Below are positions 17,936 through 53,859 of a DNA stretch of 64,000 bases, piece after piece (the stretch's first letter is position 1; every line of letters starts with the position of its first letter). A model generated the notes under the pieces. The model did not search any database. It was given only the letters and a program-made list of their open reading frames with translations, and was not told where the DNA came from. The position numbers and the translations under genes were made by a program. The stretch comes from Tetracentron sinense (taxonomy: Eukaryota; Streptophyta; Magnoliopsida; Trochodendrales; Trochodendraceae): positions 11,782,938-11,846,937 of the forward strand of contig CM026574.1 of NCBI GenBank assembly GCA_015143295.1, read 5' to 3'.

Positions 17936-18424
17936 GACGAAAAGAAAAACTAGACATGTCAAAGAAGAAAAACAATCACTACCCATTTTCAAAAAAGGGA
18001 GACCAATCAATTTCATCAAAGCCACTTCTAATCGAGCAAGAAAAAAAAGCTTCTGATGACTAAGGAGGGTGATTTTCTCGATAGGATCCAAAGACTTTTC
18101 GAATACCCTTCTGTTCCTATCCTTCCGACCCCCCAACCGATAGCTCCCAGGAGAAGCATCCAAATCTCTCCCTGAACGGCATCTACATCCCTCAAGAACC
18201 AACCAGAGATTAAACCCATAAAGTTGGAAGGAAGACCAACAATCCCCAAGCAAGATAGAAAATATCCCCATTGCTCTAACCAGAGGACAATGGATAAACA
18301 AATAATCCACAGATTCCTCCTCAGCCAAACAAATGAAACACCTATTAGCCAAACTACAACCCAAACTCTTCAAGTGGTCCAAGGTGAGAATTTTGTCCAG
18401 AAAATCTAGGCTTCTCTTTGCCAC
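17850..18424 (-). mobile_element. L1-type LINE 3' end with zinc-knuckle, minus strand
   Basis: The minus-strand frame 18424-17903 gives RSLDFLDKILTLDHLKSLG, then CFICLAEEESVDYLFIHC, the C-x2-C...H-x-C type zinc-binding segment found after reverse transcriptase in plant LINEs. It then gives the WxxW/KERNRRVF-like tail in shifted frames. The plus-strand T run near 17848-17859 is its poly(A) end. A second copy of this block with the same right flank lies at 38076-38735, as part of the large tandem duplication. Confidence 0.8.
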
Positions 18425-18819
18425 TGCCTTTGGAGTAGAAGTGTTTAAAGGACATCATCTTATGGTTAGAGCCAATGTCTGGTTATAGTTGGCAACCCAG
18501 CACAATTTTAGAGAGATTTGGAAATGACTGCTCATGTGGATTCTTTGGTTGATAACATCTTTACTACAGTTGTTTCAATTAGGAATAATTAAACACGAAT
18601 TATTCACCACTTTATATTTTTTTCATATCTTGCCTAATATTTTCCAATTTATTTCTGAATTTACAGATTTTTACAAAAACATTGATAGACGAATAATTCT
18701 CAAATTCCGACTTGGCTTTTTAACACTGAAAGTACAGATGTCCTCCTTACTGTTTACCATATTGCGTCACTATTGTGGAATGCTGAGCTATCTTTGTCCA
18801 TTTCTTCTGCTGAATCCAG

Positions 18820-18990
18820 GTATACAAAGAGAGTGCAAGAGAGAGCTGCTGGGTAGTTTCTACAGTTTATGGTGGTGTGCCATTATTGGCTTATTGCCCA
18901 TGGGACCCAGATGACATTTGGTGATACTAGAGTCCTTTTTTTTGCGGTACGATCATTTTTCCTTATGAGTGAGTAGTTTGAAAGAATACC
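18820..18990 (+). other. 5' leader of SCL1 (last non-coding exon)
   Basis: A plausible acceptor (CTGCTGAATCCAG, ending 18819) is followed by 171 bases with short upstream ATGs, ending GAAAGAATACC directly before the SCL1 ATG. The 18580-18725 stretch just upstream is a scrap of the GAATTATTC-rich repeat family also seen at 24500 and 26322. Acceptor choice is inference. Confidence 0.35.
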
Positions 18991-20790
18991 ATGTCTTTAG
19001 TTACGTCTGCAGATCCATCTGCAACACCGTACAGAGGATCTAAACTCTACACACTTGAAGGAAGCAGCGACAGCTCTGGTTTATCCACTCAAATATTTAG
19101 CTCAGATAAGCAAAAGTTCAAGTATGGGACCGAATCTTACTGCCATGGCAATTACGACCAGCAGTGCTTTTCTGACTCCCCTACAGAAGAATTTTCTGCC
19201 TCGCAAGTCGAGTTTCTCCACCCATCTAATTCTGGGATTCCAGAAACTGCATTCCGCCCTCAAGGTGTCTCTTCTTACCAGCTAAAGGCTGGCACGGGTT
19301 CTTCCATCACCACACAAAATTCATTTGACTCGTCTTTCGTGGCCATGAGACATCCTAATGCCTACCAATCGGATTCTGTATCTTTGGATGGGCAGAGCCC
19401 AGATCCAATAGACTATGACGAAGATGAGATCAAAATAAAGCTTCTAGAACTAGAGAGAGCACTCTTGAATGATAATGACGATGATGATGTATTTGACCTG
19501 AAGCAAAGCATGGATATTGATGGTGAATGGGCCGACCCGATCAAGAATCTACTGCTCACCAATTCGCTGAAGGAATCTTCATCCTCAGACTCTAATCTCA
19601 GCAGAATCAGCAGCAATAAAGATATATCTCTAGTACCTTGTGTTCCCAGGCCATGCACATCTAGACCCCTTACTCCTAAGGAGTTGCTTTTTGAATGTGC
19701 TGCAGCAATGTCAGAAGGAAACATAGAGGAAGCATCAACAATTATAGCCAAGCTCCGTCAAATGGTCTCGATCCAAGGCGATCCTCCCCAAAGAATTGCA
19801 GCCTACATGGTGGAAGGCCTTGCGGCTCGCATGGCTGCATCGGGCAAATGCCTTTATAAAGCTCTCAAATGCAAGGAGCCCCCCACATCCGACCGTCTCT
19901 CAGCCATGCAAATCCTTTTCGAGGTGTGCCCTTGTTTTAAGTTTGGGTTCATGGCGGCCAATGGCGCTATCGCAGAGGCATTCAAAGATGAAGACAGAAT
20001 CCATGTTATAGACTTTGACATAAACCAAGGGAGCCAGTACATAACTCTGATACAAGCACTTGCAACCCGGAAAGGTAAGCCACCCCACATGAGAATAACT
20101 GGGGTGGATGACCCAGAGTCGGTCCAACGTGCAGTTGGTGGCCTAAAGATCATTGGCCAGCGGCTTGAAAAGCTTGCAGAGGCAGTCGGAATGCCATTCC
20201 AGTTTCGAGCAATATCTGCCAAGACCGAAGATGTAACTCCATCAATCCTTGACTGCCAATCTGGTGAGGCGCTAGTTGTAAATTTTGCTTTCCAGCTTCA
20301 CCACATGCCTGATGAGAGCGTCTCAACGGTGAACCAACGGGACCAGCTCCTCCGCATGGTCAAGAGCTTAGGTCCAAAGCTGGTGACTGTGGTTGAACAA
20401 GATGTGAACACCAATACTGCTCCGTTCTTCCCAAGGTTCATTGAGGCCTACAACTACTACTCTGCCGTGTTTGAGTCACTTGATGCAACACTGCCAAGGG
20501 AGAGTCCGGACAGGATGAATGTTGAAAGGCAGTGCCTCGCAAGGGACATAGTCAACATAGTGGCATGCGAGGGCGAGGAAAGGATAGAGAGGTACGAAGT
20601 TGCAGGGAAATGGAGGGCAAGGATGACTATGGCCGGATTCACTTCATGTCCGTTGAGTCTATATGTGAATGATGCAATTCGAAAACTTCTAAAGCAGTAT
20701 TGTGACAGATACAAGGTGAAGGAGGAAGGGGGTGCACTCCACTTTGGATGGGAGGAAAAGATCTTGATTGTTGCTTCGGCATGGAGGTGA
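18991..20790 (+). CDS. SCL1: GRAS-family transcriptional regulator, scarecrow-like 1
   Basis: An intact single-exon frame of 599 residues, close to the size of Arabidopsis SCL1. The variable N-terminal third (1-215) is Ser-rich with an acidic stretch DDDD at 163-166. The GRAS domain runs from about 228 to the end. It begins with leucine-heptad region I (LTPKELLFECAAAMSEGN, 227-244). The VHIID motif appears as IHVIDFDINQGSQY (337-350). Leucine-heptad II and the PFYRE region follow (FFPRFIEAYNYYSAVF, 479-494; RESPDRMNVERQ, 503-514), then SAW (WRARMTMAGF at 541-550, WEEKILIVASAWR at the C-terminus). All landmark motifs are present, so the protein is probably functional. GRAS proteins act in the nucleus as transcriptional co-regulators. 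The specific role of SCL1 is poorly known. ATG 18991 is chosen because MSLV...TPYR-SKLY is the usual start of this subfamily. It converges with PEN-2. Confidence 0.93.
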   Translation: MSLVTSADPSATPYRGSKLYTLEGSSDSSGLSTQIFSSDKQKFKYGTESYCHGNYDQQCFSDSPTEEFSASQVEFLHPSNSGIPETAFRPQGVSSYQLKAGTGSSITTQNSFDSSFVAMRHPNAYQSDSVSLDGQSPDPIDYDEDEIKIKLLELERALLNDNDDDDVFDLKQSMDIDGEWADPIKNLLLTNSLKESSSSDSNLSRISSNKDISLVPCVPRPCTSRPLTPKELLFECAAAMSEGNIEEASTIIAKLRQMVSIQGDPPQRIAAYMVEGLAARMAASGKCLYKALKCKEPPTSDRLSAMQILFEVCPCFKFGFMAANGAIAEAFKDEDRIHVIDFDINQGSQYITLIQALATRKGKPPHMRITGVDDPESVQRAVGGLKIIGQRLEKLAEAVGMPFQFRAISAKTEDVTPSILDCQSGEALVVNFAFQLHHMPDESVSTVNQRDQLLRMVKSLGPKLVTVVEQDVNTNTAPFFPRFIEAYNYYSAVFESLDATLPRESPDRMNVERQCLARDIVNIVACEGEERIERYEVAGKWRARMTMAGFTSCPLSLYVNDAIRKLLKQYCDRYKVKEEGGALHFGWEEKILIVASAWR

Positions 20791-21120
20791 TTAGTTCTGT
20801 TCGATTACAGGTACTGGTGCAATTTCTGGCTTATCTTCTTATTATGTATTTTGACTCTGTATATTATATTGTGCATAGGATCAAGATGTTCTGATGATAT
20901 ATTATCCAAGAGGGTCAGAAGAAAATAAAGATTTCCCTGTTTTGTGATGAACTAGCTCTCAAGGGGTTGTAGAAGACTCCAAATGCTTCCCATTCATGTA
21001 TAATTTGTGCAGATAGCACCCCTATATATCAATCTCCTTTGTTCCTTTTTGTCTTCCATTGTTACTTTTTGTCTATCTATCCATATATTACTTGGATGGG
21101 GACATGGTCTGGAACAAACA
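20791..21120 (+). other. 3' flank/UTR of SCL1
   Basis: Non-coding sequence after the TGA with an AATAAAG-type polyadenylation-like signal at about 20925 (GAAAATAAAGATTTCC). No further gene. Confidence 0.45.
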
Positions 21121-21124
21121 ATGT

Positions 21125-21625
21125 TACCTGGTTCCCTCTGTTCAAATTCGGGTTTGCAGATCGCGGTGGGGTTTGCGGTTTGCAGTTTGCCGCTCTAGAG
21201 TAAACCCGGTTCGCTAGGGGTAGGATGAGACAATTAGTCTCTCTTAAGTTCTTTAGTTTGGTTGGCTAGTATACATGTAACCATTTACCATCATCATACT
21301 TGAGATTTGCTTACTTAAGCATGTAAAAAATATATTTTATAATAATATATATATTAAGCATGTAAATAAATATGTTATAAATACTTATTTTAGAAAACCA
21401 TAAAACAATTGTCTTTTTTTATGAGCAGTTTGCAAATCCAAAGTAAAATTCTCCAAACGTAATGTACAAATTTACAAAACCGAAAGAAAAAAATTGCCAA
21501 ACCCTTCATCGAACCGGAGCTATTGGGTAACAATTATGGGTTTGGTAATTTTCACGAACCAAAATGAACAGTACCACAAACCGGTTTCAAGTGAATCAGT
21601 TCACAGTTCGGCATAGTATGCAGGT
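21125..21625 (+). repeat. Dispersed repeat, CCCGGTTCGCTAGGGGTA family
   Basis: It shares long stretches with the reverse complement of 57285-57762: TTCAAATTCGGGTT, AACCCGGTTCGCTAGGGGTA, TTCTTTAGTTTGGTT and an AT-rich core. Words built on CGGTTTG/GAACC recur at both ends, as in small inverted-repeat elements. It lies in the gap between the SCL1 and PEN-2 3' ends. No coding region; superfamily unknown. Confidence 0.65.
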
Positions 21626-21639
21626 AACCCCGTCCCAAC

Positions 21640-22577
21640 GAGCCTACTCCTCTAATCAAGGGTTTCGCTATTGACTGCTCAAATATCAGGCTGCTTAACT
21701 ATCCGAGGCTTTTGTTTGGATGTTCAAAATAGACGAACTGGGCTATAGATAGTTTGTATCAGAGATCTTTTAGGTGGGAATCATCACAGAAGTCTTTCAA
21801 GTCCCAACTCCCTAGACATGGACCATCTGTACAATTCTTCAGCAATTTGTAAGCATCTTAAGGTAACATGCCTTGCCACCGTCGAACAGCATTGGGTTAT
21901 AAAAAGGTTGAAGCTTGGATTGAGGGTATGCTCTCCATGTCAGTGCTTGATCCCGAACTGACCAACGTGTTGCTGTCCATACCTTCAGGTGCACATTGTG
22001 ATAGTTCAGAGAAAGGTAGAGATTCTTACTTTACTTCAATGGATTCCATATTTTACCCATTCATGGTTCTAACATATGAGATCTCCTAACTGAGAAGTCT
22101 GAAAGCATGAAGATGGCCATGTTACATAATTATGTGATTAAATATTCTAATGCCGCCCTCTCTATGTAAACCAAAATCCCACATTATCTGTATCCACTTA
22201 AAACTTGCAAGGTCGGAATTTACAGTTTTTTTTTCGTTCACGGCCGCAACTCCAATTAATATGGTTAGTATCCATTCTAGGTTAGTGAAACAGGTGGATA
22301 TTTCAACCATCACACCCTCTCGGGACTTGATGTTGAATCAAAGTTGTGGTTTACTACACACAACCAATGGGCAATCGGGTAAGGCTCAGTACTTTCCATA
22401 GTAGGACAAATAGAACTGGAGGCAAGAATCATCAAAACCTTCCTGATTGAATACAATACATTGTATGTAGTTTGTTTGTAGATTGTTTGAACAATTGAGT
22501 ATACAAGGTTTATGTGCAAAACAGATACATCAAAAGAGTATATTGTGATCCTTTAAATCTGGGAAAAGGATGGATGA
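21640..22577. other. No gene recognised; 3' flank of PEN-2
   Basis: Contains short frames without recognisable domains. It probably includes the PEN-2 3' untranslated region on the minus strand (stop codon at 22578-22580). Confidence 0.4.
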
Positions 22578-22738
22578 CTAGTTCCAACCTGTCAGGCCCA
22601 ATCTATCAGCAACATTGTACATGACGAGTTGCCCCCAGACAGGGCCAAAGAGACGCTCGCCTCCGATTGCAAATGTAAGGGCCCATGAAGAAAGAAGCAC
22701 TGCAAATACCACAAATCCAATTGCTGATCCAACGACAT
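22578..22738 (-). CDS. PEN2: PEN-2 gamma-secretase subunit, exon 2 (C-terminal half)
   Basis: The minus strand reads through an acceptor (CCTTTTGCAG) into ATGTCGTTGGATCAGC. Joined in phase to the last base of exon 1 this gives YVVGSAIGFVVFAVLLSSWA, then LTFAIGGERLFGPVWGQLVM and YNVADRLGLTGWN, stop. This is the C-terminal half of plant PEN-2: the third hydrophobic segment (VVGSAIGF...SWALTFAI) and the conserved YNVADRLGL tail including the D-Y-L-S-F-like functional region. It is 161 bases including the stop, and exon 1 supplies 235, giving 132 codons in total (131 residues; Arabidopsis PEN-2 is somewhat longer). The frame is open and the splice phase fits exactly, so the gene looks intact despite the 11.2-kb intron. 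Confidence 0.88.
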
Positions 22739-23589
22739 CTGCAAAAGGGGAGGTTCACTAAAACATCAAATCAGAAATGTGTGGGTGCAAACTTGCATGA
22801 ACAAAGGAAAAAAGACTTGATAGGGGACACAGTACTGACCATTACAAAAACAAACACTACACTGGGAAAAAAAACACTCAAGAAATTTCATTTGCATGTA
22901 AACAATAACAAAAACATCTATTTAATCATACTGAATTGAGCCAACAGTCATTCCCCTGATGGTTAATAAAAAAGTGTTGTTCATGGGCCAATTAACCTGC
23001 AAAGCTGGAAAGGTTTCTTTTCTGATACATAATGAGATTGTACAAAACAGTCGAGTCTAATTTCACTAAAGGGCACTAAATTGATATTAATATTAAAACA
23101 TGGTTAGACACTTAAGACTCAAAATGCATATCACGCTCAGGACCAATCAAAGCCTCCCTTGAACTATTGTCTGTTTTCCTGCACTCCACACATCCACCCA
23201 ACAGAAAGCCCCCCCTAACACAGTTACACCACCCCAGCCAATCCCTCAACTGCAGATCTTATGCCAACAAGGTCGCCTCAAAATTTAACTCATGCAATAA
23301 ATGGTAAGAATTATCAAGTTTGCAAAACTTATTACCTTCGAAATTGGATATTAATGCAGAACATATTGCTGGAAGAGAGATGCGTAAATGAGTATTAATG
23401 GTCTGAGTTCCACTCTCCCCTATTTTTATACAAGAAGATAAAATAGTATGACACTTTTTTGTGGGTCCCATCACTTTTATTTTGTCTTTTTGTTTAAAAT
23501 TAGGAAAGACAACCGGAAAGTGGTCGTAGCATTGCTCATAATTAGAATCAAAGTTAGATCGGTATTTGGATTAACCAAGAGATTCTAAA

Positions 23590-23790
23590 AAATTTAATAT
23601 ATTGCTTTGGTGGAAATTCAATTCAACAAATTATCAAATTTTATCAATGATGGCCAGACACATTTTAGCGATTCCAATTTCAATAGTTGTTTCCGAGTCT
23701 GCATTTAGCACCGGAGGAAGACTACTTGACCAGAGCTTTAGTTTGTTACCAAGATTACATTTTTTCGGAAGATAGTGATTCACTAGATAT
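23590..23790 (+). pseudogene. hAT transposase C-terminal dimerisation domain, fragment
   Basis: The plus-strand frame gives LLWWKFNSTNYQILSMMARH and then ILAIPISIVVSESAFSTGGR, LLDQS. It matches the hATC dimerisation domain (WW..N...YP.LS.MARDILAIP.S.V.SESAFSTGGR). Upstream transposase regions are missing or unrecognisable. It is a dead fragment of an autonomous hAT transposon within the PEN-2 intron. Confidence 0.85.
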
Positions 23791-24030
23791 GTTAAAGTTA
23801 GACGTATTGAAAGATTTAAATAGTTAAACATAAGGTAGATTGAGTTTCATTTAGTAAAAACTAATTATAAAAAATAAAAGTTACATTATATATATTTTAC
23901 TCAATAATTATTTTTGTACTTTGTCTGATTCATTTCCCACCGACAAAACAAACAAATAACTCCATCATATTACTCTATGCATTGTATTGCCAGTCTTAAA
24001 CCCAGATAAAGGATGAAGGTTACACATCAG

Positions 24031-24233
24031 GTGTAGAAAAAAAAATTACTAAATCATACGACTTAAAAATTTCCTTTGCTCCTGTTTAAGCCCTAGCCCT
24101 AACATGACCCAACCCTGACCCTTGAGGGTAGGGCTTGGGCCTAGCTAGTTAAGACCCTCCGAGGTCTAGGGCCTCACTTTTATAAGTGAGGGTCAGGCCT
24201 GGTCAGACCTAGGCCCTACCCTTTGACAACCCT
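24031..24233. mobile_element. Small hAT-like element with 9-bp direct repeat
   Basis: ACACATCAG precedes (24022-24030) and follows (24234-24242). The right end reads CCTACCCTTTGACAACCCT, similar to the CACCCCTA-type ends of the hAT MITEs in this window. The left end is not a clean inverted match, so it may be an eroded or truncated copy. The interior is rich in AGGGTAGGG/CCTAGCC words. Confidence 0.5.
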
Positions 24234-24499
24234 ACACATCAGTCATAAAAAAAAATCGGAGAATTACAAGTCGAGAAGAAAAATAAGTATACAACTCAGA
24301 AGAGACTTCTTGTGTCGCAACAAATTCAATGAACCCTTAATTTGAAATTGAATGAAAAGTGAAAAAATACAATTTATGGGACAAGGATAAACAGAGGCGG
24401 AGCCAAGGGGGGCCTGTGCCCCCCTCCCCCCCAAAAAAAAAAAAACATTTGAAAAAAATTAATTTTTCTTTATATAGAGGCATAGCATGGTTGTATGGG

Positions 24500-24822
24500 C
24501 ATAGTTACCAAGTTCTTCGATTTTTTCAAAAATCCCGAATAGTACCCGACTTTTTTGTTGAGCGATTAATTCACGAAGTATTTGCGAGTTTTGAAAAAAT
24601 AGTAACTTTTTCAAAAATTTGCTAATTTTGTGAATTAAACATGTATTATTCACAATTTTTTGAAAAAGTCTCAAATAAATATCTAATCTATGAAATATAT
24701 TTGTGTTTAACTTTTATAATTACTAATTTTATTTTTTATTTCTGAATTTTTCGAATTTTGGTGATCTTTTCCAAACTTTTTCCTAGACGAATTATTCTCG
24801 TACCCCGACTTGGTAACTACGC
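24500..24822. mobile_element. hAT-like MITE, nested, GAATTATTC-rich
   Basis: The ends are CATAGTTACCAAGT and ACTTGGTAACTACGC (near-perfect inverted match). GTATGGG flanks both sides (24493-24499 and 24823-24829). The interior is AT-rich with GAATT..TTC words. Related sequences are at 26322-26634 and just upstream of SCL1 (18580-18725). Confidence 0.7.
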
Positions 24823-24889
24823 GTATGGGTGGTGGGTGCCCATCTCAGCATTTAATTTATTATTATTATTATTATTATAGTTTACTAAG

Positions 24890-25150
24890 GACTTAGAATT
24901 CCCTACTATTATAACTGGACTCCTTGGAGTCCTATTACAACCCACATGTCAACACATGTCCCTTGTAATACCCCTTAATTGTGATTAAAATTCATTAACC
25001 CTTAGGGTTCAACCACCTAACCTTGGTTTTTTAGAAAAAAAAATATTAACTCAAGGGTTAAATTTTTAAGTTGTTAACTAAAGTTATAAGGCTTTTGTGT
25101 TGTAACCGGACTCCAAGGAGTCCGGTTATTGCCATATAGGATTCCAAGTC
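24890..25150. mobile_element. Mutator-like MITE with long TIRs and exact 9-bp TSD
   Basis: TTTACTAAG flanks both sides (24881-24889 and 25151-25159). The left end GACTTAGAATTCC and right end GGATTCCAAGTC begin inverted repeats of about 60 bases that include the inner palindromes GGACTCCTTGGAGTCC and GGACTCCAAGGAGTCC. At 261 bases and non-coding it fits a Mutator-type MITE. It is nested in the 24392-25578 element. Confidence 0.85.
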
Positions 25151-25587
25151 TTTACTAAGGCATTAGTCATGGGGCAGTTGTCCCATTGAAGTTCTACAAA
25201 AAATACTTTAACTATTTTGTTTAATTATTTAATAAGGCATAGTCATTGGACAAGGGGTGAACTTTTGGAAAAAAAATATTTTATATTATTTAAAAAGGCA
25301 TATATAGCCATTGCCTAAGGAGACCTCTAAACTTTTGAAATCAAAAATATATTTTACACAATGTTATATAATTATTTAATAGGGCATAGCCATATGGCAA
25401 GGGGACAACTGCTCCCGAAAACAAGGAGAAACAATACCTATAGGGTTATGTATGAAACATGGACGAAATGATTCACAAACTTAGTCGTCAAATTTTTATG
25501 GCTACACCTCCTAACCCAAAATATTCCATAACCGCCAATAATATGCCCCCCCTACAATAAAATCCTGGCTCCGCCCCGAAGGATAAA

Positions 25588-25766
25588 TAGATCTATTTGT
25601 CCAAGCTAGGCACCTTTAATTTATACTGTGGGAGAACATTTAGGTGCTATAACTGACATCCTTCCACTAAAATCCAAATTCTAACCAAGAGTGTTTTTTT
25701 GCATCATGGATTACAATGAATGTCAAAAACTGCCCTCAATTACATCATAAGTGAATTTTCAAAATT
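25588..25766. other. Unique intron sequence
   Basis: No feature recognised. Confidence 0.4.
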
Positions 25767-26108
25767 AGGTCGAGCTGCTTAACTTAAACATTTTCATCAA
25801 CATAAAGGGGAGAAAGTTGATCTCAAAGTTGATACCTTAAAAATTGCATTTTATAATCCCAAAGCTGAATAAAGCTAACTCTATATTTCAACTCTAAATT
25901 GTATAAGGCCATTAACTAGTCATAGGACCAGTCGGTCAAACTGCTTAACTTAAACATAATGTTTCATCAAGATAGAGGGGAGAAAGTTGATGTCAAAGTT
26001 GATACCTTAGAAATGACATTTTATAATCCCAAAGCTGAATAAAGCTAAGAACTCTATATTTCACCTCTAAATTGTATAAGGCCATTAACTAGTTGTAGGA
26101 CCAATCAC
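25767..26108. repeat. Tandem duplication, ~170-bp unit, two copies
   Basis: About 25767-25936 and 25937-26108 share AGAAAGTTGATxTCAAAGTT, TTTATAATCCCAAAGCTGAA and TAAGGCCATTAACTAGT in the same order. Differences are few. Non-coding, within the PEN-2 intron. Confidence 0.85.
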
Positions 26109-26321
26109 AATCTTAATAATACCCTTGAATTCTAGATTTGGGCAAGGAGTCAAGTTCCTAGGTGAAGTTTCAAGCGCAACTGGATTGAGAGGAACTTGTA
26201 AGTGGATAAATCTGAGTAACCAAAACTTTGTAATACCCTTGTGCTCCCACTCTCTCTATGCGCTCCTCCCGACCCTATGCTAAATTTGAAATTGATGATC
26301 TCGTGTTCTCATTCTCTCTAT

Positions 26322-26634
26322 AACAAAAAACTCCGTTTTTTTCAAAAATTCGCGAATTATTTGCGCATTTTTGCTTTGCCGAATTATTGAATTCTCGAAT
26401 TATTCGCAAATTTTCCGAATTATTCGAGAATTTTCTTTATTCCCGAATTATTTTCTCAAACTTGGCAAAAAACTACTTATTTTGTATATTTTTTAATCAA
26501 ATTGTTCGATATATTTTTATATTTATTAACTCTTTTTTTTTTTTATTTGTTCCGAATCTTTTCCAATTTTTTCCCGAATTTTTCCGAACTTGACCTCTCT
26601 CGAATTATTCCCGAACCCCAACTTTGTCACTATG
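26322..26634. mobile_element. Degenerate copy of the GAATTATTC-rich hAT-like family
   Basis: Starts near ATAACAAAAAACTCCG and ends CCGAACCCCAACTTTGTCACTATG, mirroring the ends of 24500-24822. GAATTATTC-type words repeat many times. Similar but not identical flanks (CTCATTCTC / CTCGTTCTC) may be a decayed target duplication. Confidence 0.5.
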
Positions 26635-26639
26635 CTCGT

Positions 26640-27207
26640 TCTCGCTCCCATTCTCTCTCGCGCTCTCGCTCTGTGCTCTAGTTACTTAGGGATAAAAGCA
26701 CAAGATAGCTTGTTCTTTTTTAGATCAGTAAAGCAAGATCAATAATAAATCAATGAGTACAAGGAAACAAAGGATCACAAGAGGTTGAACCCGAGAAACA
26801 CACAAAGAAAGAAACAACCAAAAACATACATATATACAAAACGACACTAAACAAGCAGAAATGCACGAGATAGTTAAGAGGTGCTCAACTGCTATATGAT
26901 CCACATATCTCATTATAAGAGATACAATGACTCTTTCGCATACTCAATATGTGGTGATGATTTTTTTGAAACTCAAATTTGATACTAAGAATGGTATTAA
27001 AGGATTACTTAAGAAAGATCATTAAGGCTTTCTTCTGAAACTCAGACCAGACTAGACCAGACCCAACAGTTGAACTATTTGGATAATCAACAAGGCCCTA
27101 AACTGAGGTGAACCATAGATCCAGTAATGACCTACAAAAAGTTTAAATAACTGAGAACGCGTTCCACCCAGCGGTCGAACGAACCATTGACCTATTCAAA
27201 CCACTGT
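26640..27207. other. Unique sequence in PEN-2 intron, no gene
   Basis: No supported coding frame or repeat structure was recognised. Confidence 0.4.
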
Positions 27208-42384: not shown

Positions 42385-42603
42385 GGGGGGCGCAACTTCA
42401 AGTAGCGCTCCTATGGATAAAAACCCCAAAAAGCAAGGCGGCAAGGAACAGTGAGGCGGCAAAAGTGTGCCACATATGGGGGCGTTGTTTGAAGCATCGC
42501 CCTTATGCGAATTTTCCAAAAAAGGCCAGCCGACAAGGGTTTGACTGGTCAAAAGGGTCCAAGAAACAGTCCCATAAAGGGGCGCTATTTGAAGTAGCGC
42601 CCC
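42385..42603. repeat. Three stem-loops with a shared 7-base loop
   Basis: 42579-42603: stem GGGGCGCTA, loop TTTGAAG, perfect. 42478-42503: GGGGGCG.TG, loop TTTGAAG, imperfect. 42385-42412: GGGGGGCGC, loop CTTCAAG, imperfect. Spaced about 95 bases apart within the LTR. Confidence 0.8.
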
Positions 42604-43079
42604 TAGCTTGAGGGGCAAAATTTATATTTTTTTTCTTTGATTTTGACTCGCCACATGACACTCTGATTCACCAGTAAGCTATTTTTCCGTTTTTAGCCTG
42701 AAAATAGTCAAAATTGAACTGATAAAATCCAGAAAAATATTTTAGATAAAACATGAATTTTTTAATACTTTTCAGGGGTATTTTGTACTCCAGAGGCATT
42801 TTGGTCATTTTTTACCGTTTTAAGTCCAATTTAATCCAAAAAATAGCCAAATTCATCAAAAAAATTTGTAAAATCATTTTCGACAAAATGAAAACTTTTT
42901 AACACTTTTGAGGGGTATTTTGGTCATTTTTCACCCTAGGGGCATTTTGGTCATTTTTCACCTCTGAGCCGTTTTTGAAAATCGAAACACGTGGAAAGAG
43001 GGCTTTAAAAGAGGTTTTTTGAAAAGATTTTTAAGAGCACGGAAAGAGACTAGAGGGGTGCAAAATTGGGGTGCTTACA

Positions 43080-43250
43080 GTCTTATCTTGAGTCTTCAAT
43101 TGTATACTTTGAGTTGAGCTTTCTGTAGGATAGTTTCCATCCTTTTACCATGATTGGGGTGCTTTCTTCCTTAGAATCTGAAATACTAAAGCACTTGTAC
43201 CTTAAATTTCATTTCATTATTGTGTTATTATCAAAATTAGTAGGGGTACC
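43080..43250. other. Short unassigned stretch
   Basis: It ends with GTGTTATTATCAAAATTAG, similar to the 3' end of the copia-type LTR at 56618 (GTGTTATCATCAAAATCAC), so it may be an LTR scrap. Confidence 0.35.
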
Positions 43251-46200
43251 CAATGTTGTAACCTTGAGGCTAACAAATTTTATCATTTTTAAGACTTTAT
43301 ATATGAGCCATTTTCAATAAAGTAGCCATTTTCGACACTTTTGTACAATGCGGGATCCATTTTCAAAATTTTCATTTCATACAATACCCATTTTCGTTAT
43401 TTTGCACTCATTTTCGTCATTTTTCAGTGAATTTCGTCAGTTTTCAGAGTATAACAATTGCCATTTTCGAGATTTTCATTTCATTACAGTGAATTTCGTC
43501 AGTTTTCATTTCATTTCATTACAGTATCCATTTTTGTTATTTTGCAGATATTTCGTTATTTTTCAGTGATTTTCGTCAGTTTTCAGCGATAATAGGAGCC
43601 ATTTTCAGGATTTTCATTTTAGTACAATTCCCATTTTCATTATTTTGTAGACATTTTCGTCATTTTTCAGTGATTTTCGTTTGTTTTTAGTGATAACAGG
43701 AGCCATTTTCGGGATTTTCATTTCAGTACAGTTCCCATTTTCGTTACTTTCTAGACATTTTCGCCATTTTTCAATGATTTTTGTCAGTTTTCAGTGACAA
43801 CAGGAGTCATTTTCGGGGAATTTGATTTCAGTACAGTTCTCATTTTTGTTATTTTGTAGACATTTTCGTCATTTTTCAATGATTTTCGTCAATTTTCAGT
43901 GATAACAGGAGTCATTTTTGTTATTTTGTAGACATTTTCGGCATTTTTCAGTAACTAATGAAGAATCTAGTAACCAACCTTTCATTAAGTATTGGATGTT
44001 TTTCATTACATTAAACACTAGACATGCACTACAATGTGCATACACACATGTTTGCCTATTGTGCTTAGTTTGTTTACATCTTCCATATGTTACAGTGGAC
44101 CTTTCCTCACCCCATGAGAGAATTTTCTTCTTCTTCGGCCTCCTTGAACGTCATCTTCCCACCAGTGGTTTAACCCTGTCCATATCTACCATGACCTCAG
44201 GTGGGAAGTCCCATGATTTTTTGTCAAGCATTAGATATATTGACTCTTGGTAGGTGACTTGATATGTCATTGATGTGTAGTATGGTGAACAGTAGTCGTA
44301 TGGGTCTACCCAATACTTTCTACATCCAGTTAAGGCATGTGCACAAGGTAACCCCATTTTATATAATTTCCCATAAGTGCAATTCCCATCAAGAAGTTTC
44401 ACAGTATCTTGATTTTTTTCTCCAACCATGTAATATTGATACATAGCAATTCCATGAGAATCCAGATAACGTGTCTCTGCCATTCTCTTTTGTATTTTCT
44501 TCTCCGCCCATATTGTTAGCCTACCATTCCTTTGCATAGCGTTGATTCTTCGTTTGTAGAACATATTATGTATCTTGAGTCGCACATTCGCTATAAGTAT
44601 ACTGATTAGATATTCTCTCGCTTCCTTTAACAAACTGTTCAAGCTCTCGGCGATGTTCGTAGTCAGCATATTATATCTCTTTGCAGTATAAAAGGCCCGG
44701 GCTCATTTCTCTTTCGGTATTGCATCCAACCATTGGAGTGCAAGAGGGTTTGCGGCTATGAGTTGAGGCATCATCTCATGAAACTCGCTTTATCTACATG
44801 TCTTCACAGCTTTCCAAAAATATGTATACAATTCTTTATTTTTGAATGCTGCATACATATTTTGGCTAGTGTAGAATGGGTAGTAACCATGAATTGCATG
44901 TGAGAATACAACAGAGACTTGGCTTATCAACTAGCATGTCGATCCGTTACAATCACTACATCATCTATGTGTCCAAGTGCTCTTGATAATTGAGTTAAAG
45001 AAAAAGTTATAACATTGTTCTCCGACTCCGCTATCTCAAGCGCAATTGAAAATATGTGATTGTCTCTATCTAGAGCTGTTGCGATAATTAATATTCCTTT
45101 GTACTTTATCTTTAAGTGTGTCCCATCAATGGCTATCACTTTTCATAAAGTCGCCTGAAAACCTCGAATACACGGTCCAAGAGCCACAAAACACCTTTCA
45201 AATGCTCCATTTTCAGGATCGGCCACTATTGCTGTTACTGTTTTCGGATTAGTCCTTTTAATTCCATGAATATAGGCAGGGAGTTCGGAATAAGAGTTGT
45301 CATATGAACCTCTAACTATTTTAACTGCAATCTCCTTAGCTTTCCAAGTTTCTTGTAACTCATCTTAACCCCATATTATTCCCACACATCATGAATAATC
45401 TCGTTGGGCCTATATACGACATGTGCCTCAATAAGTCCCACAACCTAGTCACTCACAACTATACTAGTTGTTTGTCGATAATCGACACCATATAAGGGAT
45501 ATCCACATGAGTGATGTGAAGTATAAGTCTTTATTTTGAAGACACTAGCCTCATTCAGCTTCGATGCATGTAACCTCCAGGTGTAATTATTTATAAGACA
45601 TCTGAATGTATACTTTTGTCTATTTGAATCAATAACCTTGAATTGAAAATTGTTTTGCATTGCATATCTAGACAATACATTTTGTAGATGTCTTTTGTCC
45701 TTAAATAATTGCCCAATCAGTCTTTCATTACTAGCTTCCAACACAGTTTCAAACTCTGATGCTTCCCAATTTACATAGTCATCTAGTTCGATCACATTTG
45801 GCGGAGCTTGTGGCAAAGCTTTTGGAGGAGCTTGTGTGATGATTCTGGAGGAGCTTGTGGATTTACTTGCCTTACTCGACGAAAAGCAGACACTAAGGAA
45901 CTAGGAATATCAACATGCAGAAGAGTGTATAGTCCTTGTGTCCCACTCTGCTGTTGTCTTCCTATGTATAAAGTCTTGCCACATATCTTCAACATCGTAT
46001 GTTGCTACATCTTCACTAAAATCACTAAAAAATCATGCTCGTCTTCATCAGATGATCATTCACTACTTTGAAAATGTTCATCACCTATATCATTTTCAGC
46101 CCCAAAATCTGGATTTCTGCCTCCAATCGTAGTATTAGTGTTGTCCACATAAGTGTTGGGTAGAAAACTTGGATATTAACTGGCTCCGGCTGTCAAGTTT

Positions 46201-47765
46201 ACCATTGGATAAGTCCCCTCAAAGGGATGGCAGGAAAACAAGGAACATAGGCCATCTGTTCAAAGAAAGGAACGACAGTCTCCTGAATATGATGATCAAC
46301 AACCTCCTGAACACGCTGATATTCACAACTCGTAGAATTCAAACCAAATTGTGACTGTGGTACAAATTTCCTCACATTAGATATATATAATGGCGGCAGG
46401 TATTTACTTTCTACTTTCTTGACATGTGAAAAAAATGCCCACAGGTCTTCATCATCTGTTATATCACTAGGAGGGATTGGCGTTGGTGTAGGAATCAAAC
46501 ACCTCAATATAATCACATACTCTTCTGGTTGAGTGTTAGTCAATTCATAAACTTTATCCAATAGTTTCTCATATTTAATTTTCAAAGATAACTACAACAA
46601 CTTTGATTTTCCACCACTGTACACTTACCCTCTAACATTAGGGTCCTCAATGTTCCACTCACCATCATAACAACAATTGACTTATATAGGCATTATCTGC
46701 AATATCGGGAAAACATTTATATGTGAAGACAATATTTTATATTTGGCCAAACAAATAGAACATAATCTCTAATAAGCTAAGTAATCAGAATAAATTCAAT
46801 CCATTACAAGTAATCTGAAAAATATCGAAAATGAGCACTGTAACCATCGAAAATACACTCTAATAATAGAAAATCCCAAAAAAGATTGCATTGTAACCAT
46901 CGAAAATACACTTTAATAACAGAAAATCCCAAAAAAGAATGCATTGTAACCATTGAAAATGCACTCTAATAACAGAAAATCTCAAAAAAAAAGAGCACTA
47001 TAACTATCGAAATTGCACTCTAATAACAGAAAATGCTGGAAATAAGAGCACAGTAACCATCGAAAATGCACTATAATAATAGAAAATTGCAAAAATGAAC
47101 AAAGTAACCATAAAAAATGCACTCTAATAATAGAAAATCCCGAAAATGAATAAACTAACCATCGAAAATGCACTTTAGTAAACATCGAAAATCCTAAAAA
47201 TGAGCACAAAACTATCGAAAATGCATTATAATAAAAATCGAAAATCCCAAAAATGAGAACAAAACTATCAAAAATGAACTATAATAAACATCGAAAATCC
47301 AAAAAATGACCACTGTAAAGATCGAAAATACAACAAAAAATCATACTACTCGTTAACTGTGGGTTGTCCCATTTCTCAAGTTGGAATTTTTTAAAAAAGT
47401 ATAAAAATTACCCTTTGTGGCTGAATACCGGGCTGTCCTTCTTCTTCTTCTTCTACTGTGGCTGAAATGAACTCTTATTCTTCTTCAATACAAAGGTTTT
47501 AGAATGGCTGCATCTTCTTCGGCAAGGTTTCGGATGAGAGTTGTAACGAAGGGGAAAGCAAAAGGGTTGAGCTTAGTTTATGTTGAGGGGATGTCTAAAT
47601 AGTGAAGAAGGGAAAGCAACGATCGGGTATATTGGATAGAAAACAATTAGGGAAAGCACATGTTGCAGGCTCGCACACATGGGAGCCTACAGAAATAACT
47701 CCCTAAAAGTGGAGCCCATTTCCATGTTTTTTTTCGTAATTCAGGGCCCATTTCCGTACTTTTCC
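43251..47765 (-). mobile_element. Mutator-like (MuDR-type) transposon, degenerate, with tandem-repeat subtermini
   Basis: It contains a MuDR-type transposase gene on the minus strand (44151-46585). It is flanked by two repeat arrays: 43310-43960 (CCATTTTCG..ATTTTGCAGACATTTTCGTC units) and 46820-47335 (ATCGAAAATGCACTCTAATA, AATCCCAAAAATGAGCAC units). The right terminus is probably near 47765 (GGGCCCATTTCCGTACTTTTCCC), where sequence of the second duplication unit resumes. I could not define matching terminal inverted repeats or a target duplication, so the left end is approximate. Confidence 0.75.
44151..46585 (-). pseudogene. MuDR-type transposase, broken
   Basis: Minus-strand pieces in order. 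46585-46199 is an N-terminal region (DLWAFFSHVKKVES). 45816-45445 is the MuDR N-terminal zinc-finger-like domain (LIGQLFKDKRHLQNVLSRYA, then FKVIDSNRQKYTFRC, THSCGYP-like SHHSCGYPLYG). 45139-44927 is the DDE core start (MIAIDGTHLKIKYKG with the first Asp, VVIVTDRHAS with the second). 44669-44151 is NIAESLNSLLKEAREY and a SWIM zinc finger (CTYGKLYKMGLPCAHAL). The SWIM motif normally begins C-x-C. Here the second Cys reads Tyr. Frames between the pieces contain stops and shifts, so the gene is dead. Confidence 0.85.
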
Positions 47766-47940
47766 CAAGAGTATTCCCAAAAGTGCCCCTGAACTTTTTT
47801 GAAATGACCAAATTACCCCCTTGATGGCAAATTACATAAATATTCTTGACCTATATCAAAAGGAAAGTGATACATTCTACCTTACCTTTATTAAAATAAT
47901 AAATTTGGTGGAGTTTTATACCTTTTCCTATCTTTAAGCA

Positions 47941-48325
47941 AACTTATTCTCTTTTCTCTCTATCATTATCTTTCTTTTCTTTGATTGTTATAATTTGTAA
48001 TGGTGGAAGGGGGAGTGGTATACGAAGTCGATTAAAAATCAATGAAGTGCGTGGTGATTTATTTCATCGGTCTTATCTTGAATACTACAATGCTCGGCTA
48101 ACTCGTGATAAGGGGAAAATGAGGAAATCAAGAACCCGGTAAGATTTATCCTTATTTTAGTTTTTAACTACTCCATAATTATATTATTACGAAAATATTA
48201 AATCTGGATTTTAATTAACGTTTTCATAAGATCTATCTTCCAATGCAAAGCATTTGTTTGCTTATTGGATCGTGTTTCATTTGAGAATTTAGAAATGAAT
48301 TTTATGATTAATTTTATTGAAATCC
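47941..48325 (+). other. 385-base insertion with an exon-like segment, origin unknown
   Basis: Absent from copy 1, where AAGCATTCATAAATATGG (27431) is continuous. Inside, a plus-strand frame reads GIRSRLKINEVRGDLFHRSY, LEYYNARLTRDKGKMRKSRT, R (about 48015-48137). It is followed by CCG/GTAAGATTTATCC, a good donor. I do not recognise the peptide. No target duplication is visible. It could be a captured host exon or part of a transposon gene. Confidence 0.5.
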
Positions 48326-49030
48326 GGATATTCATAAATATGGAAAATTGGAAATAGGCCAATAGGAGGGTGACAAATGTCCCTAGAGAAATTTGGATAA
48401 ACTTAAAAGCAATAAATATTAAATACCCTAAATTCAAACTAAAATCCCTTTGAAAAATAGTCAAATTAGGGTAGGAGAGACCAAGACAAGACCCCTTTTA
48501 ATGCCAAAATTAGGAGTAGACCAAATAGGTCTCCCCGGGGGTAGCTGCCATTTAAACGGCTGCCCCTTGGGGATTTGTTTTGGACTGAAACTCTCCAATA
48601 TTTGGTTTAAAACACCCTTTTGAATCCACTCCTATCTCTATAAAAGGAGGGACCAAAAAATATTTGAGACTGGAACCGAATTAGTGAGAAGAATTTAGGA
48701 AAACTTTTGGGAGATCTCTCTACTCTCTCTCTTCTACAATTGGTGTTAAGGAGCTTTGAAGCATCTGGATCTTCATTCCTTCTACCTCTAGCGGTCCTAG
48801 GATCTTTAATAAGAAATTACAAGTAGAAAGCTTTCTTCTTTCTTTATTTTATTTTATAAGTCTATTAGATGCTCTTTTGTAATCTACTTTCCCTCTCTAC
48901 ATCTTCCCTTTTTAGGTTTTCTGGAGATTATGCTTTAGAATTTGGAAACTATGAAGATGGAAGCCATGATTTTTTGTGTACAAATGGATTTTGAAGTCTT
49001 GCTTTAATTTCATGCATGAATATCATATGA

Positions 49031-50872
49031 TCTCTACTATTATAATGAGAGAATGAGGGTCAAAAAATAGATGGATTCTTTTTTTATATTGACCATAAAC
49101 CTAACTATTATTTTAGTCTATTACTTTTTTTTAGGGTAGTTATACCTAAGGACATTTAACTAATTTAACCACTAGCTAACTAACTGCATATCCTTTAATA
49201 CCACGATTCTCTCAATCCAGTTTTTTTTTCTCTCTTGCTCTCATCCTCTGTTGCCCCTTGCTGCTTGCTACCGCTCCCTGCCTCTTGGTGCCATCGCCTG
49301 GTCTTCCTCTATCCGTAAGTTCTTTTCTTATACTTTATTCTTCTTCTTCCTTTTGATCTGTCATCCCTTTATTAGATTAGTTGCAGAAAGTTGTTAAGAC
49401 CCTCTGTGTGTTATCTGCTGGATGAGCGGTTTGTCGATGGTTGTATTCCGATGCAAGATTGGGTAATCAGATGCATTGGGCTTGAGTTAAGCACCAATTA
49501 TAACGCATGGCAAAGCAAAGGAATGACATGGGGCTGTGCCCTATTGGATGTGCTCACTAAGGTTTTTTCACGACCATGATTGGCCAGACCTACCTGTTCA
49601 TGCTTCTGGCTTTTTCTCCGCATGACCCATTGCGCTTGCCTATGAGCACTAGATTCAAAATCCTAGATAAACCAACCCTAAGGCTTACTTTAAAAAATTA
49701 TATTATTTTTTAAAAACCCTAAGGTTAGATGCTTTAACCCTAAGGTTTAGTAAATCTTAACTACAATTAGTGAGAGTTAAATGTGGACCATGTTTTTGGC
49801 CGTGACATATAGGGATGAGTAGTTAGTACATGACCGCAAGGTCCTCTACCCTATCAAATTTCATAAGAAATTTAACTGTTTAGGTTAAAATTGTTAACCA
49901 TAGTTAGATGAACAAGCTAAAGAGACACTTTACAATTGGTGATAAGTTTTAAATATAGTTAAAAATTTATTATATTCATAAAAAAAAAATCACGGTTAGA
50001 TGATTTAACCCTAAGGTTAAGTGAATCTTAACTTCAGTTAACGAGAGTCAACTGTGTGACGATGTTTTTGGTCGTGACATATAAGGATGAGTAGTAATGT
50101 GGTGAATCAACTGACAAACCATCTCATACTTTAACTGCCCTTAAGTTTTGGTTAGTAAGTTTTAACTCCTGTAGTTAAAAAACTACCAAGGTTAGATATT
50201 TTAACCTTAAAGTTTAGTGATTCTTAACTATAGTTATTAAGAGTCAAATGTGGACCATGTTTTTTGCCGTGACATATAGGGATGAGTAGTGATTAGATGA
50301 CCACAAGGTCCTCTTCGTAGCCGACCACTCTATCAAATTCCAAAAGAAATATAACTTTAAAGATTAAAAATTAGTAACCACAGTTAGATGAAAAAGTATC
50401 AATTTACAACTGAGTGGTAGGTTTTTAACCCATGTAGTTAAAAAAAAAATCAAATATAGATGATTCAACTCTAAGGCTTAGTAAATCTTAACTACAGTTA
50501 ATGAGAGTCAAATGTGGACCATGTTTTTGGCTGTTACATAGTTCAATACTAAGATTTTCATTCGTCAAATTAAATATGTTTATTTGTTAAGCAATCAAAA
50601 TATGAATGCAATCACATTAATGACATCTCTATGTTTTGGCATACTCACCTTCTAATAATAAGATTAAATAAATAATATTAGTTAGATTGAACTAACGATT
50701 TAATACGATCTTAAATACTAGTATATCATCAAAACAAAATCTGATATATCTTTTAATATATTGCATTTCACATATATTCAAACCATTTTTTCTCATCTTA
50801 TCGTTGTGTAGTTTTTTTTTTTTTAACCATTAGAATTGGTCACTCATGTGCATCGCACGTGCATTCCACTAA
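49031..50872 (+). mobile_element. Helitron (non-autonomous), 1.84 kb, with empty site
   Basis: 5' end TCTCTACTATTATAATGAGA; 3' end GTGCATCGCACGTGCATTCC then ACTAA, with a short GTGC/GCAC hairpin a dozen bases before the end. Inserted between A and T (CATATGA / TAGGTTT). The copy-1 empty site reads CATATAATAGGTTT at about 28126. No Rep/helicase gene. The interior has four spaced copies of a ~110-base motif (about 49722-49830, 49995-50095, 50180-50300, 50455-50540). A 62-codon frame at 49391-49579 has no recognised domain. Confidence 0.88.
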
Positions 50873-52080
50873 TAGGTTTAATTACATATAGTTTTATACA
50901 TTATCTTATGCATTTTTTTTATCATTAAAATTCGTTAGGGTAGCTAACTAAATGAGTTTAGCCCTTGAAATTGGCCTCCGGACTTGGTTTAGTCAAAGAT
51001 CAATTTTGGTTGGGCTAATCTCTCAGTTGGACCCATCCACCCATCCACTGATGATTTGCATCGATATTGGTGCTAATATTTGTACTGTGCAGACGATCCC
51101 TAAATGCTGGTTTTTGGCATATAGAGTAATTTGGGTCATCTAAACTCAATTTTGGCCTTGAAGTTTATTTCTGAAGTCAAAATAGGGTGCCCGAAACTTA
51201 CTTTTGACGCCAGTCATAATCCCATGTAAATCAATTGCTAGTTTTTTTAGGATGTTATTTCCTTCGGAATTCCAAGTAAACCTTATATGGAGTCTGAAAG
51301 GCTAAAATATGGCCGAAACAATTTTAGAGCTGCATATTGATCTATAGAGCATTGTTGCACGGTTGTACCTAATCCAAACATGCAAGGACGCATTTTCAAA
51401 GGGCGGCCCCTTGTTTTTTCCGTTTTCAGAAACCCTACTTCGGATTTTGGGTCCTCTGGTCCCTACTTTGACTCTCAGTCTAGAGTTTGTGATATTTTTT
51501 TTTAATTTTATAATTAATTTTTTCTTTAGTTTAAAATAAACTTGTCTCATCACTTTGTTTCATCCTTACATAAGCTTAAACAGTTGATGTCATTTAAAAA
51601 AAATAAAAAAATTAATCAAAAACATAATTTTTTATATATAAAAATGTGTTATTTGCATGCTTGCTTATGTGATTTTATTTGCTTGCTTGCATATCTGTTT
51701 CTAGTTGCTTGCTTGCATGACCTTTTTATTTGCTTGTTTGTGTGCTTGCATGTTTGTATAAAATATTAAACTAAGGAGGTCTGATTCTCCTTTTATGGAA
51801 TACGTAGGCAACTGTTTCTTTTTTCCCTTGTACATGATTACTTGAATTTAGGGATGTTTTTAATTTCATAGTTTAATCAGAGTTGAGTATTAGGTAAATC
51901 GCCTTAGGCCGAAATTAAGGGTGCCTAACACATTCCATTGATTTAACCGAATCTCTTACTGAGAATCTTAATTTTTTTTTTTTATCGATATGTAGAATCT
52001 TTTAATTATAGACCACTGTCTTATTCATTATTTGATTAGGGCTCCTATTCTCCCATCATTAAACTCAAGAATTAAAAACT

Positions 52081-53298
52081 CAGTTTCAGGTACCGTAACG
52101 GTCTCGACCGAAACCAATAGGTATCGCTTTCGGCCGTTTTTTTTTTTTTAAATATAAAAAAATTACAATGATTTTTTTTTAAGTGGATGGGTAACAACAT
52201 TATTCTAAAATTAATATCAAGTTGAAAATGTAGAAATAATAAAATATAAGATAGTAGATGAGTCGAAAGTAGAAACATATATTGTTAAATGTTTAAGCCA
52301 CATATACATTTTCAAATCGATGATTCAAACCCCAAATCAAGTTTTCAATCACCAAAAATAAAAAGAATTTTAAGGCTTAGAATGGGTAGAAAGGAAAAGA
52401 GAATTGAAAGAAGTGATTTTGGTATGTTTTTAGGGGTTTACGTAACTTTTTTAACCAGAAAAGTCGGCCGAGTCCTACGGCCAAAACCGTTACATATTGT
52501 AGGACTCAGGTGATACGTAAGAGTTTCAGCCGACTCCAATTTCTTCTTCAAAATCTCGTAAAAGCACAATTTTGGGTTCTGGGTTCTACCGAAACCGATA
52601 TATATCAGGCGATACGTATCGATTTCGACAATTTTTTAAACCATGATTAAAATAGGTGATCACTCCATTTTTAATCATTTTTCATAATTCCCTTATATGG
52701 GTTATCCCAATTTGGAATGGTTTTAAATCCCATATCCACAAGGATCACAACGACATTGCAGGTTGTTGAACCCTGGACCGCTTTTAATCTTGCCGGAAAC
52801 CATAGGAGTTAATAGTTTTGGGAATAAACATAGGCTACCTATCATTTTAACAAAGATACATACAATGGGTAGGTATATGATATATCCCTCGGGTGCGACA
52901 ATGAAATATATTGGCCAATATAACGATTTTTGCCGATATTTATAATTTAAAACTATGCTTAAGGTTTTAATTACCTGTTATGCATACCAAAACCATTTTA
53001 AAACATAGAAAGAAGCAGAAGATAATCTACAAATAGATCCAAAGCAACAAAAAGATAATCCGCATAAACTCAAAATAAAATTCGTTATGGATTTTAATTA
53101 AAAAGAACCCCCTCTTCTTTAATAAGAATAATTACAAAAATGGAATACAAGAAACCAGGACCTGATTAAAAAGAACCCTCTTCCTTGAGCCTACGTCTAA
53201 AGCCCATTTAATAATGGGGCCGCAATTGGCCCAAACCGGCCCATTGACACTAGTTATAAAACGCATGCTTTTGATGGAAGGACTTTAGGCCATAAGCA
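52081..53298 (+). repeat. Duplicate of PEN-2 intron/upstream sequence, exon 1 deleted
   Basis: Matches 29515-33320 minus the private hAT insertions. It then jumps at about 53175 (GATTAAAAAGAACCCTCTTCC) to sequence equivalent to 34788. The PEN-2 exon 1 region (33325-34780) is missing, with an AAGAACCC-CTCTTC repeat at the junction. No coding region. Confidence 0.75.
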
Positions 53299-53701
53299 TC
53301 TTCTTTATCTTTACTATTATAATGCAAGAGGCATGCATAGATGATGTTTCCGAAATTTCCAAATTACCCTTATATAAAAACAAAACATTGATTTAATGTC
53401 TTACTTTAATTCCCAAACTATCATAACTATCATTGCCTTTGATTTATTGTTTTATTTTAATTCCTAAACTACCCTTACCATCTATCTATTTAGAATCACA
53501 CACAACCAATCGCGATTGACCTCAGGGAGAGTTCAATCACACCCATGGGTTAACACGTGCCCCTTTTAATTCCTATTAACTGTGGTTAACTCCTTCCACT
53601 TACTCTCACGTGCATTAATGCACATGCCACTAGCGAGTTCAATCGGGTGTCGTTAACTCCTTCCCCTCGCTCTCATGAGCATCGCACGTGCCACTTACTA
53701 G
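53299..53701 (+). mobile_element. Small Helitron with two 3' ends in tandem, empty site known
   Basis: 5' TCTTCTTTATCTTTACTATT; 3' GAGCATCGCACGTGCCACTT then ACTAG. Inserted between A and T (AAGCA / TATGTATAC). The copy-1 empty site reads AAGCATATGTATATAC at about 34892. About 70 bases before the end there is a second Helitron-like 3' end (ACGTGCATTAATGCACATGC then CACTAG, ending about 53633). Both are preceded by TTAACTCCTTCC. No coding region. Confidence 0.85.
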
Positions 53702-53859
53702 TATGTATACACTATCAAACACCCTATGACAAAATTTCGAGATAAGATTTAAAAAATTCTAAAAATATAGGACGAAATTGTTTAGAAATAAACACAATGT
53801 GTAATTGGAAGGTAAAGATAATTAATGAAAGTGAGCTTACATAGACATAAATCAATTAC

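Follow-up and report, generated by a model that had tools for sequence, protein, structure and literature searches.

Three head-to-tail copies of a chromosome stretch with an SCL1-like GRAS gene and PEN-2 in Tetracentron sinense, with most extra gene copies decayed

A tandem duplication can become a triplication when its members recombine asymmetrically, and the genes kept after whole-genome duplication show a pattern complementary to that of segmental duplicates (PMC9252495). We have found that a chromosome stretch of Tetracentron sinense with an SCL1-like GRAS gene (a gene regulator) and PEN-2 (a gamma-secretase subunit) is present in three head-to-tail copies, here called A, B and C, and that nearly all extra gene copies of this array have since decayed. 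A tandem array is the outcome of an ordinary, known kind of process, which is unusually readable here. Among the matches listed in a literature search, no title dealt with a duplication of SCL1 and PEN-2.

The window, that is, the whole stretch of 64,000 nucleotides that was analysed, comes from assembly GCA_015143295.1 (genome of 1.16 Gb), contig CM026574.1, and corresponds to C24:11782938-11846937. Flanks of 40 kb on the left and 100 kb on the right were added, and all coordinates are window positions, also beyond its ends. Copy A occupies 17973..38076 on the + strand and measures 20,104 bp with its private insertions counted. The left end of this copy is native, since its left flank is collinear up to 17815 with a locus on another chromosome, a putative whole-genome-duplication homeolog (the C2 homeolog), and since the alignment of one of five LINE copies examined (L006) covers 17853-18403 and thus spans 17973. 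Copy B, also on the + strand, fills 38077..64000 and continues to 89922 beyond the window; it is perhaps a hybrid with a C-like left end and an A-like right part. Copy C lies right of the window at 89923-100718, on the same strand as the others and in register, and nine pieces of A recur in it in the same order (17973-18441, 20397-20723, 21896-22733, 23264-23396, 23538-24395, 25604-25783, 32953-34347, 34779-34912 and 35002-35106). The three copies are adjacent and share orientation and block order, as in a tandem segmental duplication. A model of only two copies is ruled out by copy C, and no fourth copy appeared among the genome-wide matches listed for SCL1 and PEN-2. The first-pass annotation had described a 17-kb tandem duplication; its head-to-tail segmental nature holds, but the copies number three and the unit extends to about 38076 rather than 35.1 kb, because the stretch 36195-38076 that precedes B also precedes C, at 88130-89922 (K2P 0.063-0.066). 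Within this stretch lie the PGG last exon of an ankyrin/PGG gene, a palindrome and two dispersed repeats. The homology of the left flanks of B and C covers 36195-38547 and 88130-90396.

Self-BLAST of the window gave 11 collinear, same-strand blocks that link 17973-35127 with 38077-53856 (E-values from 1.9e-22 to 0), where four blocks between 18.0-35.1 and 38.1-53.8 kb had been named before. Blocks 1-3 pair 17973-18622 with 38077-38734, 20044-20204 with 38735-38895 and 20272-20371 with 38890-38989; blocks 4-6 pair 27264-27435 with 47768-47940, 27435-28131 with 48330-49031 and 28128-28760 with 50870-51485; blocks 7-9 pair 28924-29778 with 51482-52307, 30794-31190 with 52301-52698 and 32815-33327 with 52705-53170; and blocks 10-11 pair 34781-34896 with 53185-53299 and 35056-35127 with 53786-53856. 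The offset is 20.1 kb at block 1 and 18.6-18.7 kb for the SCL1 scraps; the middle blocks are offset by 20.5-22.7 kb, and those at the right by 19.9 kb and then 18.4-18.7 kb. The offsets predicted earlier were about 20.1-20.5 and 18.7 kb. Raw BLAST identity is 80-95%, and the two blocks with low values (80-81%) owe them to gaps; with gaps excluded, 385 of 4199 columns carry substitutions (K2P 0.098). The uniform divergence that the annotation expected agrees with the data, as homogeneity was not rejected for all 11 blocks (chi2 15.1, df 10, p=0.13) or for the nine non-coding ones (p=0.17). Divergence between A and C is less even than that between A and B (K2P 0.064-0.235).

On the one hand, some of the A-B blocks contain old dispersed repeats and belong to dispersed repeat families, as would be expected if independent repeat insertions had become collinear by chance. 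On the other hand, order, strand, gene exons and junction are all common to the copies, and pieces of SCL1 and PEN-2 occur only in the array and at C2 among the matches listed, other GRAS genes aside. Other listed genome matches of 27435-28760 have 66-80% identity over at most ~760 bases (40 of 57 candidates scored), and those of 17973-18622 outside the array have 69-83% identity (40 of 392 candidates scored), so the pairing of A with B is no chance meeting of dispersed repeats. We consider such a coincidence practically negligible, and it is refuted by the gene pieces common to the copies. An assembly artefact made of unmerged haplotypes is very improbable considering the divergence of about 10%, the many private insertions, the codon decay in B and C, and the third copy, which lies on the same 33-Mb contig at some distance.

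The left edge of the unit is a LINE scrap on the - strand (17973..18441; Pfam zf-RVT 9e-7), which starts A, B and C; alignment of the C2 homeolog at this scrap is confined to 18401-18517. The spacer in front of B contains two dispersed repeats, namely TE-a (37371..37758, from repeat comparison) and TE-b (37758..37895, from comparison with two genomic copies), the latter cut at the copy junction. TE-b reads here ACGT, C and then CAATCACT, where the two genomic copies examined read ACGT and GGAAACC. In a longer reading, these two genomic copies continue as ACGTGGAAACC, whereas the junction copy is cut at ACGT and followed by C and CAATCACTACCC, the latter being the first bases of the unit. Both junctions carry one and the same joint: TE-b is cut after ACGT (AAGT in the second junction) and CCAATCA follows, so that the cut repeat, ending at 37895, is fused to the LINE scrap (17973 = 38077). 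A first duplication driven by homology was rejected, as TE-b and the LINE are unrelated at the joint, where one base is ambiguous.

On this joint lies a palindromic element of 170 bp (37906..38075), which we call a MITE from its form and which is also found before C. It is flanked by 10-bp direct repeats, CCAATCACTA, at 37896-37905 and 38076-38085, and before C its flanks are CCAATCACTG and CCAATCATTA. Because the same MITE sits on both joints, it arrived before the joint was copied. Moreover, the recurrence of this MITE-bearing junction implies two or more events, which contradicts the single duplication event proposed at first.

The ankyrin/PGG gene is distributed unequally over the array. 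At the right end of A, only its last exon was found (PGG, 36195..36797, + strand, Pfam PGG 2.3e-27), and searches with the ankyrin exons of B found no earlier ankyrin exons in A. This exon is abutted by a LINE fragment (35128..36194, + strand) whose start matches zf-RVT weakly (E=0.0004, short of the Pfam cut-off) and which includes a stretch judged by eye to be RNase-H-like. The PGG exon of A has 88% amino acid identity to the copy before C, and its next relatives reach at most 61%, except for one 58-residue piece at 67%. In B, the gene comprises ankyrin exons at 78098-78757 (Ank_2 7.4e-14), a candidate exon without Pfam support at 78939-79118, a weak ankyrin exon at 85957-86430 (Ank_2 0.0012, under its cut-off) and the PGG exon before C (88130-88727). 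In our judgement, B holds the array's only near-complete ankyrin/PGG gene; this is a judgement because the first exon was not identified. When the changes in the PGG exon were polarised with two relatives, L043 and L044, more fell on the A copy (21 vs 10 and 19 vs 8), and the two relatives disagree over the codon positions of these changes. Further PGG exons of this family, 56-67% identical to those of the array, are clustered at C24:12.7-14.0 Mb.

Right of C, up to 164 kb, we found neither ankyrin/PGG nor spacer sequence that would represent the native right end of the unit, and 35 kb of the C2 homeolog likewise yielded no remnant of this gene. The former speaks against a simple tandem duplication, which predicts such a remnant right of C. 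One explanation is that the ankyrin/PGG gene never belonged to the original unit and was caught at the first junction as filler of more than 10 kb, a reading that could be combined with any of the other explanations of the array's history. Relatives of the gene on the same contig, at 12.7-14.0 Mb, and the lack of any trace in the two regions just named are in its favour; however, it requires a very large insert, and a deletion from C is simpler. We therefore regard a filler origin as a minor possibility and assume that a deletion explains the missing end. The classification as a tandem duplication rests on features other than the native right-hand end.

The only open GRAS gene of the array is in A (18982..20790, + strand, Pfam GRAS 1.9e-140); SCL1 is the label given to it by the earlier reader. 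Its product is 84% identical to that of the C2 homeolog, with a dN/dS of 0.17. A also keeps both exons of PEN-2 (PF10251), on the - strand: exon 1 at 33881..34105 (C24:11816818-11817042), in which the frame is open throughout, and exon 2 at 22611..22739 (C24:11805548-11805676), open to its stop. The earlier claim that one copy had kept both genes is thus borne out by A. The extra copies are eroded. In B, SCL1 is left as scraps at 38735..38989 (161 and 100 bp, + strand, from self-BLAST). Compared with A, this copy has two deletions: one of about 1.4 kb, and a smaller one of about 67 bp that shows AGTT as a 4-bp microhomology. In C, 327 aligned bp of SCL1 remain, and 4 bases have been inserted. 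Pieces of SCL1 were found in A, B, C and C2 among 80 genome-wide matches listed, the rest being other GRAS genes with at most 59% identity. The five PEN-2 matches in the genome are two in A, one in C and two at C2, so none is in B, which agrees with the description of B as a copy without PEN-2 and with only scraps of SCL1. Exon 1 of PEN-2 in C contains an in-frame stop, and exon 2 has lost its splice-side flank by deletion. Several deletion joints in the array show short microhomology or none.

We polarised the SCL1 substitutions with C2 and dropped three sites that differed in all three. On the A branch, all 7 changes fell on third codon positions and none on positions 1-2, in contrast to the branches of B and C, on which 7 of 26 were at third positions and 19 of 26 at one of the other two (A versus B plus C, p=0.0008). 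This pattern suggests that codon constraint was lacking in the additional SCL1 copies during most of the time that they have existed. With disabling lesions and lost codon constraint, SCL1 in B and C is a pseudogene.

SCL1 and the two PEN-2 exons are retained at C2, which is collinear with the left flank of A (10892-16332 and 17323-17815), SCL1, and PEN-2 exons 2 and 1; the order of these parts matches, and the right flank gave no convincing synteny. The array is younger than the homeolog split, because synonymous divergence between A and C2 is 0.469, against a total K2P within the array of 0.098 (A-B) and 0.131 (A-C). Intron DNA of PEN-2 that is common to C and C2 (within 93177-94318) is missing in A. 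The PEN-2 intron is about 11.1 kb long in A (22739-33881) and about 7.8 kb at the C2 homeolog. Since A lost this intron DNA and kept only the last ankyrin/PGG exon, of which gene B has nearly the whole, the decay was not one-sided as had been proposed. In the left flank, a tRNA-Ala call (12149-12222) starts exactly where homology to C2 ends (12149); homology returns at 15022, and 12149-15022 is possibly an insertion that begins with tRNA-like sequence.

Private insertions were expected on both sides and are found in A and in B, with empty sites in the partner. A contains a TIR insertion of 163 bp (28761..28923, CTAGGAAGCA...TGCTTCCTAG) with an empty site in B, a TIR-like insertion (29779..30793) with CATATAC at both sides and an empty site at 52301-52307 of B, and a second insertion (31191..32814) that is absent in B and shares its 3' part with the preceding one at 71%. 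B contains an insertion of 1.84 kb with internal repeats (49032..50869; empty site at 28128-28131 of A), which we take to be Helitron-like, and a stretch at 53300..53785 where the sequence of A differs and whose repeat (53308-53645) is also found at 84287-84611. The LTRs of a copia element in B (58300-64023) differ at 15 of 251 columns, and a MuDR-type transposase piece (45445-45900, DBD_Tnp_Mut 2e-11) lies in a part of the array present only in B. Left of the array, an LTR retrotransposon at -12799 to 2438 (L010-L012 together with 1-2438) has 3.4-kb LTRs that are 96% alike (TGTGAGCG...GCTTACA) and ACTGT at both outer ends; related repeats (-20245 to -12800 and 2440-9325) form the array into which it was apparently inserted. 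A remnant of about 50 bp in A (34952-34999) resembles, by eye, the fused start and end of that LTR (TGTGAGCG...GGGTGCTTACA) and is absent from B and C in the alignment.

The kinship of B may differ along its length. In the left block, with each of five LINE outgroups (302-430 columns), 9-14 derived sites are common to B and C, 0-1 to A and B, and none to A and C; four unrelated pieces forced in as controls gave 4-6 against 2-4 and 1-3. Because all five outgroups agree and the controls lack such a pattern, B and C are sisters at the left end. In the right block, a rooted test with the C2 homeolog that favoured A and B (13:1:1, support 0.993; Fisher 1e-5) does not stand. We withdrew it because true homology to the homeolog is confined to the final part of the block and because four forced unrelated pieces gave similar values (9-17 against 0-2 and 2-7). 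The 69 truly homologous columns, when rooted, give 5 sites for A and B, 1 for A and C, and 2 for B and C, which points towards an A-B pair but on too small a number. A search for a better outgroup returned six matches, which were the three array copies and three short pieces (37-76 bases).

Counted unrooted, the sites at which one copy is the odd one out number 34 for A, 18 for B and 15 for C on the left, and 31, 25 and 94 on the right. This contrast is significant (chi2 p=1.5e-7; p=0.0005 without the first right stretch), also for B against C alone (18:15 left, 25:94 right, p=0.0003). By stretch, the right-hand counts for A, B and C are 17/7/61, 8/11/9 and 6/7/24, so that one stretch of 130 columns (8, 11 and 9) has no preference. 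The K2P between B and C rises from 0.063-0.077 on the left to 0.135-0.197 on the right, and that between A and B is alike on both sides (0.105 left, about 0.10 right). From these unrooted branch lengths, the right part of B looks kin to A, and B may be a mosaic of A and C.

A plainer history would be that A split from the ancestor of B and C and then B from C, so that B is no mosaic and the right part of C is merely fast. The B-C kinship on the left is well rooted and the right part has no secure root, as this history would allow. Near PEN-2, 895 columns carry 60 changes specific to C and 34 specific to A (p=0.01), and this faster evolution of C partly explains its long branch on the right. 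However, C would have to evolve about four times faster on the right than on its left, and B, which is equally gene-free there, shows no rise (25 against 94). Accordingly, we judge two plain steps to be unlikely. It is also conceivable that the array grew by stepwise tandem duplication (X to XY, then one copy again) and that a subsequent gene conversion made B and C alike at their left ends. Conversion would carry the MITE and spacer too, and the left distance between B and C (0.063-0.077) is younger than that between A and B elsewhere (about 0.10), as a later conversion predicts. But one more event would be needed, and the converted tract would have to span about 2.3 kb or more, whereas an unequal crossover accounts at once for the third copy and for the left-right contrast; we give conversion only a limited chance.

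An unequal crossover fits best as the origin of a mosaic B, and we consider the following history fairly probable. A block with the SCL1-like GRAS gene, PEN-2 and the ankyrin/PGG gene would have been duplicated head to tail in place to give X-Y, with a first joint between two unrelated repeats, the cut TE-b and the LINE scrap, formed essentially without homology. The MITE would then have inserted exactly on the X-Y junction. Later, X and Y may have mispaired, and a crossover of Y on one chromatid with X on the other would have yielded X - (Y left / X right) - Y, that is, a third, middle copy with its left end and junction from Y and its right part from X, so that A corresponds to X, B to the hybrid and C to Y. 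After the crossover, as we infer the order, the redundant SCL1 copies would have drifted as pseudogenes and genes would have been lost piecemeal through deletions and mobile-element insertions, with SCL1 and PEN-2 surviving in A and the near-complete ankyrin/PGG gene in B. The two distances expected to date such a crossover differ (B-C left 0.063-0.077, A-B right about 0.10), and its position would fall within 18441-32953, where B and C have no overlap.

More tentatively, and with considerable doubt, the locus could be read as a natural experiment with three genes, in which one block was multiplied by two routes and the fate of each gene was settled separately. SCL1 and PEN-2 would have kept their C2 homeolog, while the extra tandem copies of SCL1 were unconstrained apparently from birth and those of PEN-2 were lost; this part is equally doubtful. 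The ankyrin/PGG gene would have been kept in the other copy, which we likewise hold as a speculative reading. In such a case, neither copy could be lost without losing a gene, because the surviving set is spread over two copies.

The array shows the stepwise rise and erosion of a plant tandem array, and the steps on view are an illegitimate joint of two repeats, a MITE marking the interval between events, a likely crossover, and losses split between the copies. With relatives, it would allow each loss to be timed against the second event. It would likewise allow one to ask about the gene-balance prediction that genes kept after whole-genome doubling are purged at once from tandem copies. Compared with known systems, the ankyrin/PGG gene of the array resembles those of the ankyrin-PGG gene clusters of plants, a family that we take to be ACD6/ITN1-like, in its ankyrin and PGG architecture and in having clustered relatives on the same contig, but it differs from them as a single member inside an SCL1-PEN-2 array. 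As in gene-balance fractionation (PMC9252495), SCL1 and the PEN-2 exons were kept at C2 and lost from the extra tandem copies; our case is a single locus known from its sequence alone. Like the tandem-to-triplication cases outlined there, two copies in place became three and most redundant genes were then lost. Unlike the triplications outlined in the same source, the unit here contains three unrelated genes, and the junction, the MITE that arrived between the events and a possibly mosaic middle copy are still readable. The value of the case is this readable history, as the process itself is already known.
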